NCBI GenBank assembly: GCA_029287915.1
Contig: JARFQE010000076.1
Coordinates: 1-64,000, forward strand
Length of the DNA stretch: 64,000 nucleotides
Source of the DNA: Arenicellales bacterium
GTDB lineage: Bacteria; Pseudomonadota; Gammaproteobacteria; BMS3Bbin11
Reading direction: 5' to 3'
In this document: piece after piece, positions 30,349 through 47,017 of the stretch
Layout: every line of letters starts with the position of its first letter
Position numbering within the stretch: position 1 is the first letter of the stretch
Translations under genes and position numbers: made by a program
The notes under the pieces: model-generated
The model's input: only the letters and a program-made list of their open reading frames with translations
What the model was told of the DNA's origin: nothing
Database searches by the model: none

Positions 30349-30918
30349 ATGTCATTTATGAATACTTCTCTTTTTTCCTCCCTCCTGTTCGTGATTCTAT
30401 TTTCTGTCCCAGTATCTGCAAATGTTGATATTGAAAGTGATAGGCTTCCGTTGGTGCGTGATTTGTTGGCTGAATCCCGTCAGGCCGCATGTAATGGACA
30501 GCCTCTGGTTGTTATGTTTGGTTCATCTACCTGTCCATACTGTAGTGTCGTACGCTCACTTTATATAATCCCATTGATGAATGATGAGCGCTATCCGGGC
30601 ATAGTTTCCCGTGAGCTGGAAATAGATAGTGATGAGCTGGTCAGAGATTTTTCCGGAAAACTTGTGCGTATGACTGAGCTGGCGTCAAAATACAGCGTAA
30701 CGCTTGTCCCTCAGGTGATGATTTTTGGTCCGAGTGGTAAGCAGGCGGGAAAGCCTATAATTGGAATTTCTAGTGAAGATTTCTATGCCTATTATCTGGA
30801 TCAGGCAATTCTTGCAGGTATCGAAATGGTGCGACAGAAATCTACTGCGGAAACCTCCGGTAACAATCCTTCTACTGACGTACCCAGCGCCTCACCTGGG
30901 GGGTATGTCTGCGACTGA
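30349..30918 (+). CDS. exported thioredoxin-fold protein (SoxW/thioredoxin-like, CPYC)
   Basis: Signal peptide; [28 protein letters not shown]. Confidence 0.8.
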
Positions 30919-31603
30919 CGACAAGTTTTTCATCAATATCCTTCATCAAAATACGCCAGTGGCCTGCAGTGTTTTTTTCCATTCCGAGCAGGTAGTCGGT
31001 ATTGACCAGTGAACTGCGATGAATGCGCAGGAAACGATCTGAAAACTCTTCTTCCAGGCTTACTAGTGATTCTTCAATGAGATGCTGTTCCTTGGCAGTA
31101 CGCACAGTTACATACTTGTTGTCGGCAATAAAATAGATAATGTCCTGCACTGGAATAAGTGTGATTCTGCCACGCATATGCACACTGATATGACTGCGAG
31201 ATTTTTTTTCATCGCTACTGCGATTTACCTCTTTTAGTTGCTTCGCGGTGATAGGCCGGGCTTTTTTCAGTGCTGTTTCGAGTCGTTCTTTGCGAATGGG
31301 TTTCAGCAGATAATCGACAGCATTCACCTCGAAGGCATCCAGAGCATGTTGGTCATAAGCAGTGGTGAAGATGATCATGGGCGGGTTTTCTATGCTCTGC
31401 AGGTGCATAGCGGCTTCCAGCCCATCCATTACAGGCATTCGTATATCTATTAATAACAGATCAGGTTTCAGGAGATTTGTTTTCTCTACAGCCTCGCTGC
31501 CATTGGCTGCTTCTCCGACAATTTCTGTCTCACCCAGGTCTGCAAGTAAATCTCGCAAACGTTGTCTTGCGAGGCTTTCATCATCAACAATAAGAATCTT
31601 CAT
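30872..31603 (-). CDS. algR: LytTR-family response regulator AlgR
   Basis: MKILIVDDESLARQRLRDLL receiver and LytTR domain (IHRSSLVN); adjacent to algZ and hemC. Confidence 0.92.
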   Translation of the reverse strand: MKILIVDDESLARQRLRDLLADLGETEIVGEAANGSEAVEKTNLLKPDLLLIDIRMPVMDGLEAAMHLQSIENPPMIIFTTAYDQHALDAFEVNAVDYLLKPIRKERLETALKKARPITAKQLKEVNRSSDEKKSRSHISVHMRGRITLIPVQDIIYFIADNKYVTVRTAKEQHLIEESLVSLEEEFSDRFLRIHRSSLVNTDYLLGMEKNTAGHWRILMKDIDEKLVVSRRHTPQVRRWVRQ

Positions 31604-31619
31604 CTGGTTCCTCGGTAAA

Positions 31620-32675
31620 TCATCTGTTGGTAACAATAGGGAAGGTGATCTGTGTAATATGTAATTCGTCACGACTGGTGGAGCTAAGTGAGGCGGCATC
31701 TCCAAAATGTCGAACCAGTCTCTGTTTGATGTTATCCATAGCAATCTTATTTCCTTTTCGATGACTCTGCTCACCTTCAGCTGGCAGTGGATTACGTATA
31801 AGGACCTTTACCGTGTCTTTGTCAGCTCGCATGTCTATATCAATAACGCCACCGCCAAAACTGGGCTCAATACCGTGATAAACAGCATTTTCCAGCAGTG
31901 GCTGCAGAATCAACGATGGCACGAAACAATTTTCTGGTATATGTTTTAAATGCCATTGTACGCTGAGCCTGTCACCGAGGCGGAGTTTTTCAATTTTCAG
32001 ATACTGTTTTGATGTTTCTATTTCGGCTACCAACGGGACCAGATTACGAACATCGGCCATCAGTACACGAATCAGGTCAGCCAGGTCCTGCAATGCATGC
32101 TCGGCCATCTCAGGATTGTTTCTTATTAGCCCGGCAATGCTATTCATGCTGTTAAACATAAAATGTGGCCGTATACGTGACTGCAGGGCCTGTAGATTGG
32201 CGGTCTGAAATGATTTTCTGATGGCGCTGGTTTTTGATTTCTGTAATAGAACCATTAACACTATAAAATAGCTTATGCTGGCAATAATGAAAACCTGCAT
32301 TGGTGAAATCTTTGCCCAGTCGCCTGATATCTTAAATGACCAATTGTCAACAACAAGGTTATAAAGGCCATAGCCAATAATAAATGTGGTTGCCATTAGC
32401 AGCAAATAAGCAGCGATCAGGTTGATGATGAGTGGCCGCGATTTAAGGATTGGATTGAAAAGTTTTAGTACCAGTGCATCTGATACTGCAATCAGAATGC
32501 TCGCAGCCAGCAGCGCACTGAAGTCAGGGATAATACTGCTGTTCCATGTGTTGTACCGAGCCGCAGTTATGACCAGGCTGGTCAGTAATGCTGCGAGCAA
32601 CAGGATACCCGTTACAGAAGTTGTGTAGTCAGGAGGCGTTATTGTCTCTGTCGCTTTAGCTTGTTTCTTGCTCAT
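31620..32675 (-). CDS. algZ: LytS-type sensor histidine kinase AlgZ/FimS
   Basis: LQSRIRPHFMFNSMNSIAGLIRNNP, LILQPLLENAVYHGIE; start at MSKKQAKATE. Confidence 0.9.
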   Translation of the reverse strand: MSKKQAKATETITPPDYTTSVTGILLLAALLTSLVITAARYNTWNSSIIPDFSALLAASILIAVSDALVLKLFNPILKSRPLIINLIAAYLLLMATTFIIGYGLYNLVVDNWSFKISGDWAKISPMQVFIIASISYFIVLMVLLQKSKTSAIRKSFQTANLQALQSRIRPHFMFNSMNSIAGLIRNNPEMAEHALQDLADLIRVLMADVRNLVPLVAEIETSKQYLKIEKLRLGDRLSVQWHLKHIPENCFVPSLILQPLLENAVYHGIEPSFGGGVIDIDMRADKDTVKVLIRNPLPAEGEQSHRKGNKIAMDNIKQRLVRHFGDAASLSSTSRDELHITQITFPIVTNR

Positions 32676-32738
32676 TCGAGTGTCTCGACCATAAAGATCG
32701 ACTTCAGGTGTGGCAATGAACATGATAGCAGTAGCGAT

Positions 32739-32845
32739 AAAAAAAAACCCCTTGAAAACAAGGGGTCTGAATCTTCTAGTCCAGTAGTCGGGGGTGTATC
32801 AGATGAGGGTTGCTGGACCAGGATGTTAGTGCTATTTACTAACGG
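32739..32845 (-). ncRNA. candidate sRNA A, tandem sibling of 33182-33285
   Basis: Minus strand: SL1 GTTAGT/ACTAAC; SL2 UGGUCCAG/CUGGACUA with loop CCCTCATCTGATACACCCC; terminator ACCCCTTGttttCAAGGGGT + T9. 5' end approximate. Confidence 0.65.
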
Positions 32846-32908
32846 TGACGATATTACCACAGCAGGCACTGGTATAAAAAACTTGCTGATCACAGGGTGA
32901 ATCGGGCA

Positions 32909-32917
32909 GACGAATGG
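32909..32917 (-). promoter_or_regulatory. AlgR-box-like motif CCATTCGTC
   Basis: One mismatch to AlgR consensus CCGTTCGTC; upstream of sRNA A. Confidence 0.35.
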
Positions 32918-33181
32918 TCTTATGACAGGTTTGTCTTTCGTATATTGGTATATTACTGGAAAAACAGTCATTGCTGTCTCTTTTTTTGTCATTGTTTACA
33001 CCGTTTTGCAAGTAAACAATCGAAATAATTAATCTTTATTCTGTTCATCAACACGTATTTTTACCTGAACAATCCAGTTTCTTTCTATTTATTCTTTATT
33101 GTAATTGACCGTTGACGTGTGATTAGCCCCCGGGTTCTGTATATTCATGTGGTATATCCAAATCACTGGTTATTTATTATT

Positions 33182-33285
33182 AAAAAACCCCCTTGTAAAG
33201 GGGGTAGGGTCTGGTCTGTTATAGATTTGGGGTATAGCTTGATGAGGGGAACAGACCAGATCAAGGTTAATGCTCACCTTAAATC
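33182..33285 (-). ncRNA. candidate sRNA B, tandem sibling of 32739-32845
   Basis: Minus strand: SL1 AAGGT/ACCTT; SL2 TCTGGTCTGTT/AACAGACCAGA (11 bp perfect) with loop CCCCTCATCAAGCTATACCCC; terminator ACCCCCTTtacAAGGGGGT + T6. 5' end approximate. Confidence 0.65.
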
Positions 33286-33339
33286 TAGTCAGTTAAATGG
33301 GGGCAGCCAGATATGCCAGACTAGCGGTTGATATATCAT

Positions 33340-33348
33340 GATGAACGG
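33340..33348 (-). promoter_or_regulatory. AlgR-box-like motif CCGTTCATC
   Basis: One mismatch to CCGTTCGTC; upstream of sRNA B. Confidence 0.35.
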
Positions 33349-33415
33349 TCTGATGGATTTAATGATGCTCTCTGTGCCGTTATAATCCGGTGATCTTCAG
33401 AGGAAACGGATAGAA

Positions 33416-34816
33416 ATGACAGGTAAACAAGAAAAACCCTGGAAGGGTCGCTTTACAGCGGCAACAGATCAGCTGGTTGAGGAATATACAGAATCAGTAT
33501 CTTTTGACCAGCGTTTGTATGATGTCGATATACAGGGATCCAAGGCACATGCCAGAATGCTGGCCAGGGTCGGTGTGCTGACTGCATCCGAGAGTGACGC
33601 CATTATCACTGGCCTCGATCAGATACATGACGATATTCTACGAGGAGATTTTAGCTGGTCCCGCACTCTTGAAGACGTACATATGAATATTGAGGCGCGC
33701 CTGACAGAAAGCATTGGTGATGTCGGAAAGAAGTTGCATACCGGGCGTTCTCGTAACGACCAGGTGGCTACTGATATACGCCTTTATCTGCGACAGGGGG
33801 TGGACAGGCTGAGTGCAGAGCTAAAGACTCTGATACTGTCTCTACTCGATCTTGCTGAGGCAGAATACGATACCATCATGCCCGGCTTTACACATCTTCA
33901 GGTGGCCCAGCCAGTTACATTTGGCCATCACATGATGGCATGGGTAGAAATGCTCAGGCGTGATCTGGGTCGCCTGTCGGATTGTCGTGGGCGGATGAAT
34001 GTAATGCCTCTGGGTGCAGCCGCTCTGGCTGGAACCACGTTTCCTGTCGACCGCCATTTTACAGCAACGCTGCTTGGTTTTGATGGGCCGGCAGAGAACT
34101 CGCTGGATGCTGTATCTGATCGTGATTTCGCGATGGAATTCTTATCGGCAGCAGCAATCATTATGATACATCTTTCTCGTATGTCTGAAGAGCTGATCAT
34201 CTGGTCGTCTGCACAATTTGCTTTTATTGAAATCAGCGATACCTATTGCACCGGTTCTTCTATCATGCCGCAAAAAAAGAACCCAGATGTTGCGGAACTT
34301 ACTCGTGGTAAAAGCGGCAGGGTGATCGGGAACCTGGTGACTCTGTTGATGATCATGAAAGGACAACCTTTGGCATATAACCGTGATAACCAGGAAGATA
34401 AGGAACCTCTGTTTGATAGCCTCGACACAGCAACCGCATCTGTACGGGTATTTGCAGGCATGATACCCCAGCTGACAGTAAAGTCTGAAGTTATGTATCA
34501 GGCCGCCCGGCAGGGTTTCTCGACAGCCACTGATCTGGCTGACTATCTGGTGAGAAAAAATATTCCCTTCCGCGATGCCCATGAAATTGTCGGCAAGGCA
34601 GTGCAGGCAGCGGAACAGACAGGGCATGACCTGTCTGACATGTCTCTCGATGAACTCAGGCAATTCAGTGCTGACATAGAGAATGATGTATTTGATGTGT
34701 TAACACTGGAAGGTTCCGTAAATGCACGTAATCACATAGGCGGCACTGCACCAGAGCAGGTTCTTGAGTCCATCGGGAGAATGCGCAAGGCTATTGGTAA
34801 TCAACAGGCGGAATAG
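33416..34816 (+). CDS. argH: argininosuccinate lyase
   Basis: [39 protein letters not shown]; upstream TATAAT at 33381. Confidence 0.97.
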
Positions 34817-45235: not shown

Positions 45236-47017
45236 ATGGATCTTCAAACTATGACCTACCTGGTGGTAGGGTTGTCCTTTGCTATATATATCGGCATTGC
45301 ATTCTGGGCGAGAGCTAAAACGACCGGTGATTTTTATGTTGCAGGCAAGGGGGTGCATCCGGTATCAAATGGAATGGCCACCGCCGCAGACTGGATGTCG
45401 GCTGCCTCGTTCATATCTATGGCCGGACTGATTGCCTTTAACGGTTACGGCGCTTCCGTCTTCCTGATGGGATGGACGGGTGGTTATGTATTACTCGCCA
45501 TGTTACTGGCTCCTTACCTGCGCAAGTTTGGTAAATACACCGTGCCGGAATTTATTGGAGACCGGTATTACTCGAGAACTGCAAGAATTGTGGCAGTTAT
45601 CTGTTTGATTCTGGCATCCATAACCTATGTTATCGGGCAGATGAAGGGCATTGGTGTTGCCTTCTCACGTTTCCTTGAAACAAGTTATGAAATGGGCCTA
45701 TACATAGGCATGGGTGTTGTTTTCATCTACGCAGTTATGGGCGGAATGAAGGGCATCACTTATACCCAGATTGCACAGTATGTGATTCTCATTTTTGCCT
45801 ACACGGTACCCGCTGTCTTTATCTCTTTGAGTCTGACCGGTGTGGCCTTGCCACAGCTCGGGTTGGGTGCTGATATGTCAGGGACATCGATGTCTATGCT
45901 GGACAAGCTGGATCTTGTGGTTGGAGAGCTTGGCTTCAAGGAGTACTCGACACAGGTGATGGGCAGCAAACTCAATATGTTTGTCTATACGATGTCACTG
46001 ATGATTGGTACCGCTGGACTGCCTCATGTCATCATGCGTTTCTTTACCGTGCCGAAAGTGAAAGATGCTCGTGCCACTGCCGGCTGGGCGCTGGTGTTTA
46101 TTGCGATACTATATACGACGGCTCCTGCTGTTGGCGCGATGGCTCGTCTTAATCTGATGGAAACTATACAGGTTGGCGAGGTTGGTACAGTCGAAGGAAA
46201 TCTTGCTTATGATGACCGCCCGCAATGGTTCAAAAACTGGGAAACTACCGGTCTGCTGCAGTTCGAAGATAAAAACGGTGATGGCCGTATCCAGTACTAT
46301 AACGACAAGGACGAAACGTTTGCTGCAAAGGCTGAATCATATGGCTGGAAAGGCAATGAAATGGTCAAAGTTGACCGTGATATTATGGTACTGGCCAATC
46401 CGGAAATTGCTAAACTGCCAAACTGGGTGATCGCACTGGTTGTTGCCGGTGGGCTGGCTGCTGCACTATCGACAGCAGCCGGTTTGTTGCTGGCGATTGC
46501 CTCATCGATCTCGCACGATCTACTCAAAGGCGTGTTTATGCCATCTATATCAGAAAAGGCTGAACTACTGGCGGGTCGTATCGCTATGGCAGCTGCTATC
46601 GCTATGGCGGGTTACTTCGGCTTACATCCACCAGACTTTGCAGCCGGCACTGTAGCGATTGCATTTGGTCTTGCAGCGGCTTCAATATTTCCTGCACTGA
46701 TGATGGGTATCTTTAATAAAAGAGCTAATCGTGCCGGTGCTATCTGGGGAATGATTGCTGGCATTAGTGTTACTATGCTCTATGTATTCCAGCACAAAGG
46801 CATCATGTTTGTTCCTGGAACTGATTTTCTTGGTGACATGGGTGCAAACTGGTTCTTTGGTATTTCACCAAATGCCTTTGGTGCAGTAGGTGCTGTAGTT
46901 AACTTTGCTGTGGCTATCATAGTTTCGAAGCTGACTTCACCACCGCCAGAGCACATCCAGCACCTGGTAGAGGATATTCGTGTCCCTGCCGGCGCAGGTG
47001 CTGCAACAGGCCATTAA
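45236..47017 (+). CDS. sodium:solute symporter, cation/acetate symporter ActP-like
   Basis: DFYVAGKGVHPVSNGMATAADWMSAASFISMAG; GTAGLPHVIMRFFTV. Confidence 0.93.
   Translation: MDLQTMTYLVVGLSFAIYIGIAFWARAKTTGDFYVAGKGVHPVSNGMATAADWMSAASFISMAGLIAFNGYGASVFLMGWTGGYVLLAMLLAPYLRKFGKYTVPEFIGDRYYSRTARIVAVICLILASITYVIGQMKGIGVAFSRFLETSYEMGLYIGMGVVFIYAVMGGMKGITYTQIAQYVILIFAYTVPAVFISLSLTGVALPQLGLGADMSGTSMSMLDKLDLVVGELGFKEYSTQVMGSKLNMFVYTMSLMIGTAGLPHVIMRFFTVPKVKDARATAGWALVFIAILYTTAPAVGAMARLNLMETIQVGEVGTVEGNLAYDDRPQWFKNWETTGLLQFEDKNGDGRIQYYNDKDETFAAKAESYGWKGNEMVKVDRDIMVLANPEIAKLPNWVIALVVAGGLAAALSTAAGLLLAIASSISHDLLKGVFMPSISEKAELLAGRIAMAAAIAMAGYFGLHPPDFAAGTVAIAFGLAAASIFPALMMGIFNKRANRAGAIWGMIAGISVTMLYVFQHKGIMFVPGTDFLGDMGANWFFGISPNAFGAVGAVVNFAVAIIVSKLTSPPPEHIQHLVEDIRVPAGAGAATGH

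Follow-up and report, generated by a model that had tools for sequence, protein, structure and literature searches.

The window, that is, the whole 64-kb stretch of DNA analysed here, carries a LytTR-type two-component locus on its minus strand. algZ (fimS; 31620-32723) encodes a LytS-type histidine kinase (Pfam His_kinase, PF06580), and algR (30872-31774), directly downstream of it, codes for a response regulator whose DNA-binding domain is of LytTR type (Pfam Response_reg and LytTR), the presumed activator in the scheme proposed below. The divergent neighbour is argH (33416-34816, plus strand; Pfam Lyase_1 and ASL_C2). The true start of algZ is probably the ATG near 32675 rather than the listed one at 32723, since the listed start overlaps TGNTANNNT, an extended -10-like motif that stands just after the sRNA terminator in most homologs (32700-32740 in the window) and may be the algZ promoter. 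Among near-full-length homologs of algZ from the genus, most matches start at residues 8-14. Tandem pairs of algZ-like kinase genes were seen in G116, G232, G088, G315 and L027.

Two small RNA units, A (32739-32846) and B (33182-33277), lie inside the algZ-argH interval, both on the minus strand. Each is ~95-108 nt long and combines a long-loop hairpin, SL2, with an intrinsic terminator. Judged from the -10 elements, transcription of A would start near 32846-32843 and that of B around 33277-33274; the 3' end of A is a run of nine T. SL2 of A (32776-32821) has the arms CTGGTCCAG (32821-32813) and CTGGACTAG (32784-32776) around a single-stranded loop of 28 nt, CAACCCTCATCTGATACACCCCCGACTA, and SL2 of B (33210-33260) pairs TCTGGTCTGTT (33260-33250) with AACAGACCAGA (33220-33210) around a C-rich loop of 29 nt. 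A terminator scan found the GC stem and U tract of an intrinsically terminated sRNA in both units, at 32745-32768 for A (T9) and at 33187-33205 for B (T6). Folding energies were -32.0 kcal/mol for A (z = -4.0) and -33.9 kcal/mol for B (z = -4.7), and for either unit 0 of 200 dinucleotide shuffles folded as well. Hairpins and sequence of both units match their earlier description, as do the compensatory differences between the SL2 stems, where C-G, A-U and G-C pairs in A correspond to U-A, G-C and U-A pairs in B. The short 5' hairpins that the earlier note had assigned to both units held for A (SL1, GTTAGT/ACTAAC), whereas that of B (AAGGT/ACCTT), although present, may lie partly outside the transcript, because it starts ~2 nt past the likely -10 (TAGATT, 33287-33282). 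At the position of this 5' hairpin, relatives have a different one, GAGC-AUUA-GCUC.

Both copies recur elsewhere in the genus, in the five genomes G001, G002, G003, G005 and G006. The A loop, CCCTCATCTGATACACCCCC, is identical in 6/6 genus genomes, and the loop core CCCTCATCTGA.ACACCCC is invariant in all A relatives, those of a second genus included. The B loops of the relatives mostly start with CAACCCTCA or CGACCCTCA and end in CACCCCC or TACCCC, and most of them resemble A more than the window's own B does. A genome from another genus of the same family (G007) has one copy (L026), with a nearly identical loop of 28 nt and a changed stem. The simplest reading of these sequences is that a single ancestral copy upstream of algZ was duplicated in this genus; loss of a copy in the other genus is a possible alternative. 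The G005 bin holds two versions of the algZ-argH region (L010/L023 on G005:C164 and L015/L025 on G005:C162), one ~100% and the other ~71-81% identical to the window, and the MAG probably contains two species.

Two covariance models were used, R1, trained on the A group and L026 only, and R2, trained on six Acidiferrobacter-like sequences only; the genomic position of matches played no part in building either. R1 matched A at 32739-32843. It also matched the window's B at 33179-33281 (28.6 bits, E = 8e-4) and, among the B copies, scored 26.6-36.3 bits (E = 1.6e-5 to 2e-3 in 220 kb searched); across the whole genome the match to the window's B was weaker (E = 0.01), and all of these E-values are rough. 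A model trained without B thus recovers B, which upholds the claim that the two units are siblings.

The RNA was also found in Acidiferrobacter-like genomes (L028-L040, L052 and L038), where it lies upstream of algZ, shows the loop ACTCTCCTTATGCACCCCCACCCC on a covarying stem and has a terminator. R1 matched these single-copy RNAs at up to 35.9 bits. R2 in turn matched A in the window (32739-32825) at 28.5 bits and the B copies of the relatives at 18-26 bits, and it added further genomes, G088 and G315 at ~57 bits and G330 (L135) at 30.8 bits. Every one of the Acidiferrobacter-like copies, like those of G088, G315 and L135, lies between argH and algZ, and the reciprocal model matches in the algZ-argH gap extend across lineages. 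From these comparisons, it is well supported that the RNA family reaches beyond the genus into several gammaproteobacterial lineages. At L039, ~1.1 kb of extra sequence (1820-2930) separates the sRNA from algZ, and the sRNA still adjoins argH.

Among the class's best algZ matches, the RNA was present in 4 of the 23 algZ-argH gaps measured (G212, G088, G315 and G330); the other gaps of this set, mostly ~20-180 bp with two longer, held no recognisable RNA. Since the RNA is missing from most other algZ-argH gaps in the class, it is not essential to AlgZR. Several candidates were set aside. The weak class-wide R1 matches L103, L104, L106 and L107 (rough E-values of 2e-4 to 5e-3) are ordinary-looking terminators with no adjoining algZ or argH, the loop-pattern matches in G122 and G237 resemble the 3' ends of tRNAs, and the ones in G277, G369 and G021 are surrounded by sequence without algZ or argH.

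Because the two arms of SL2 were misaligned in mixed MAFFT alignments, we scored covariation on an alignment fitted to a model. This R2-fitted alignment holds 28 matches; it is biased towards its own structure and includes two probable false rows (L038:955 and L029 minus strand). In it, 98.9% of cells pair and 14 of 17 pairs are changed on both sides. The covariation score was 0.575, compared with 0.204 after shuffling and at most 0.157 in controls with the partner slid, and the individual minimum-energy folds agree with the covarying structure. Covariation within the A group alone was not significant because its sequences are too alike. The earlier note had deduced a selected RNA structure from A and B, which two sequences alone cannot prove; the wider homolog set, in which 14/17 pairs covary, does prove it. 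Its broader proposal of duplicated structured sRNAs is likewise borne out by the homologs, the reciprocal covariance models and the covariation.

A scan of the entire 64-kb window against Rfam 15 gave zero matches at the gathering threshold. The sub-threshold match to A with the lowest E-value was anti-hemB (RF02837), at 22.8 bits against a gathering threshold of 49.5. It is the terminator of A that aligns best with this family, and with a score below the threshold A is no member of it. Membership of A or B in any Rfam family was rejected, as no score reaches the gathering threshold. No paper on an sRNA encoded in the algZR locus was found in the literature searched. The statement that the RNAs belong to no named family therefore stands as far as Rfam 15 and the literature searched reach.

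Each unit is preceded by a direct repeat of LytTR/AlgR type that is absent from the earlier note. It consists of two 9-bp boxes 12 bp apart, ACCATTCGT-N12-CCCTGTGAT for A (32889-32918, minus strand) and ACCGTTCAT-N12-ACCGCTAGT for B (33320-33349, minus strand), and in both cases ends 32 bp before the -10. The -10 elements, assigned from the sequence and a comparison of relatives, are TGGTAATAT for A (32851-32856, minus strand), which is of the extended -10 type, and TAGATT for B (33282-33287, minus strand). Across 19 sRNA promoters from all lineages, the gap between repeat and -10 is 32 bp in all A and B copies compared, 34 bp in L135 and 33 bp in the others. Repeat positions C2, C3, T9 and C10 are invariant in these promoters, and CC and T are mostly kept in box 2. 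A relaxed form of the repeat pattern occurs twice in the 64-kb window, both times at these promoters, with ~1 occurrence expected by chance.

This layout fits the rule for LytTR promoters, in which 9-12-9 repeats precede the -35, 10 bp being the commonest distance (PMC6193735); together with a 17-bp spacer, that distance places the repeat 33 bp from the -10. The window boxes CCGTTCATC and CCATTCGTC are each identical at 8/9 bases to the AlgR core site, CCGTTCGTC (PMC4064291). A point against control by AlgR is that characterised AlgR sites of P. aeruginosa are often not direct repeats with 12-bp spacing (PMC4064291). Given repeats that follow the LytTR rule, the match to the AlgR core and an adjacent gene for a LytTR regulator, it is natural to infer that AlgR activates both sRNAs.

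Pairing of the loop sequence CCCUCAUC with GAUGAGGG-like start regions, as proposed earlier, is plausible, although our target search gave no confirmation. A 10-mer search with the loop-A seed GATGAGGGTT in six genomes returned 39 matches, compared with 8 for the reversed pattern. About 9 of the 39 were the sRNA genes themselves; one other match was conserved between genomes (G001 and G003; L169/L180), and none in the six genomes lay at a conserved start site. Duplex energies were no better at gene starts in the window than in gene interiors. A gene for a sodium:solute symporter (45236-47017) has GGGGG directly before its ATG in four genomes. This run might base-pair with ACCCCC in the loops and is offered as a lead only; G001 and G003 yielded no copy of the symporter. 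In the window's own genome, the contig ends G000:C57 and G000:C77 (L178 and L182) are 97% identical over 498 bp and carry GATGAGGGTT, which suggests a repeat or one copy that was split.

Sequence comparison thus gives good support to the RNA genes and their structure, the arrangement of the promoters, the synteny and the breadth of the family, and we infer transcription, control by AlgR, binding of Hfq, an anti-RBS mode of action and targets. The genome encodes hfq, and it is plausible that A and B are Hfq-type sRNAs. We consider it likely that A and B are AlgR-activated sibling trans-acting sRNAs with anti-RBS loops that form the RNA output arm of AlgZ/AlgR. AlgZ would sense a signal and AlgR would become phosphorylated; phosphorylated AlgR would then bind the direct repeat ~45-75 bp upstream of each start and bring about transcription of A and B, with the intrinsic terminator ending each RNA. 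SL2 would serve as a rigid clamp presenting an unpaired loop of 28-30 nt with two C-rich patches, CCCUCAUC and ACCCCC. This loop would pair with G-rich ribosome-binding/start regions of mRNAs, mostly for repression and probably with Hfq.

The position of A, which lies on the algZ strand and ends ~16-64 bp before the gene, together with the finding that the RNA element lies upstream of algZ in every case, would also suit a 5' leader of the algZ mRNA, attenuator- or riboswitch-like, whose terminator controls read-through, with B as a duplicated remnant. This is rather unlikely: B, 440 bp farther upstream, has a promoter box and a terminator to itself, and the extended -10-like motif past the terminator in most homologs suggests a separate algZ promoter. 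The distance between RNA and algZ also varies, from roughly 200 bp in G088 and G315 to ~1.1 kb in L039, and the folds showed no alternative anti-terminator pairing. That the sRNAs are real and answer to a regulator other than AlgR we regard as unlikely, since the repeat is of LytTR type, its boxes match the AlgR core and the LytTR gene next to algZ is algR in the examined loci that extend far enough; what speaks for such a regulator is the presence of additional AlgZ-like proteins in G001 and other genomes.

Sequestration of a protein (CsrA/RsmA-like) or of another sRNA, instead of pairing with mRNA, would accord with the tie between AlgZR and the Rsm system in Pseudomonas (PMC4064291) and with a GGA that A has in the 3' arm of its SL2. 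That GGA, however, is in the stem rather than the loop and is absent from the 3' arm of the B copies, and the conserved unpaired part is C-rich, which makes a sponge improbable. Still less can be said for a small protein encoded by A: A is spanned by one open sense frame in 7/7 relatives, but B has no common open frame, the stem changes are compensatory and the frame crosses the terminator, and we regard this explanation as highly improbable. Returning to AlgR-activated trans-acting sRNAs, we lean, with somewhat less assurance than for A and B themselves, towards an undescribed sRNA family that is the conserved RNA output of AlgZ/AlgR-type LytTR systems in several gammaproteobacterial lineages. 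In logic it would be a Gram-negative equivalent of AgrA-RNAIII, with one long-loop C-rich hairpin and a tandem duplication in this genus.

What appears to be new is the RNA family, its connection with AlgZR and its occurrence here as twins; the regulatory logic would be one already known from Gram-positive bacteria. RNAIII of Staphylococcus aureus is far longer than A and B; it contains a peptide-coding sequence as well, runs divergently to agr and carries several C-rich loops, whereas A and B are ~100 nt long, have a single loop of 28-30 nt, lie on the algZ strand and stand in tandem, and no sequence relationship is claimed. We likewise know of no RNA sequence that A and B share with VR-RNA, VirT or VirU of the VirR system. 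In AgrA-RNAIII, as proposed for A and B, a LytTR response regulator activates an RNA beside its own two-component genes, and C-rich loops, conserved in RNAIII, act against ribosome-binding sites (PMC2837412, PMC3861533). VirR of Clostridium perfringens, also a LytTR regulator, is documented to drive sRNAs and has two imperfect direct repeats upstream of their genes (PMC4877802). The Xanthomonas sRNA sX13 is similar in size (~115 nt) and directs C-rich loops against G-rich motifs near starts, as proposed for A and B, and algR is among the genes raised in its mutant; it differs from A and B in locus and architecture, with three C-rich stem-loops, a position at polA and independence of Hfq (PMC3771888). 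NgncR_162/163 of Neisseria are also sibling sRNAs but belong to other bacteria and another locus (PMC9973317).

For studies of mechanism, the long conserved loop, held by a covarying clamp, offers a clear mutable target. AlgZ/AlgR governs many traits in Pseudomonas. If the proposed reading is true, a widespread LytTR system would be tied directly to post-transcriptional control, a new sRNA family would come with its input signal already supplied, and indirect repression by AlgR-type regulators would become testable in those lineages.
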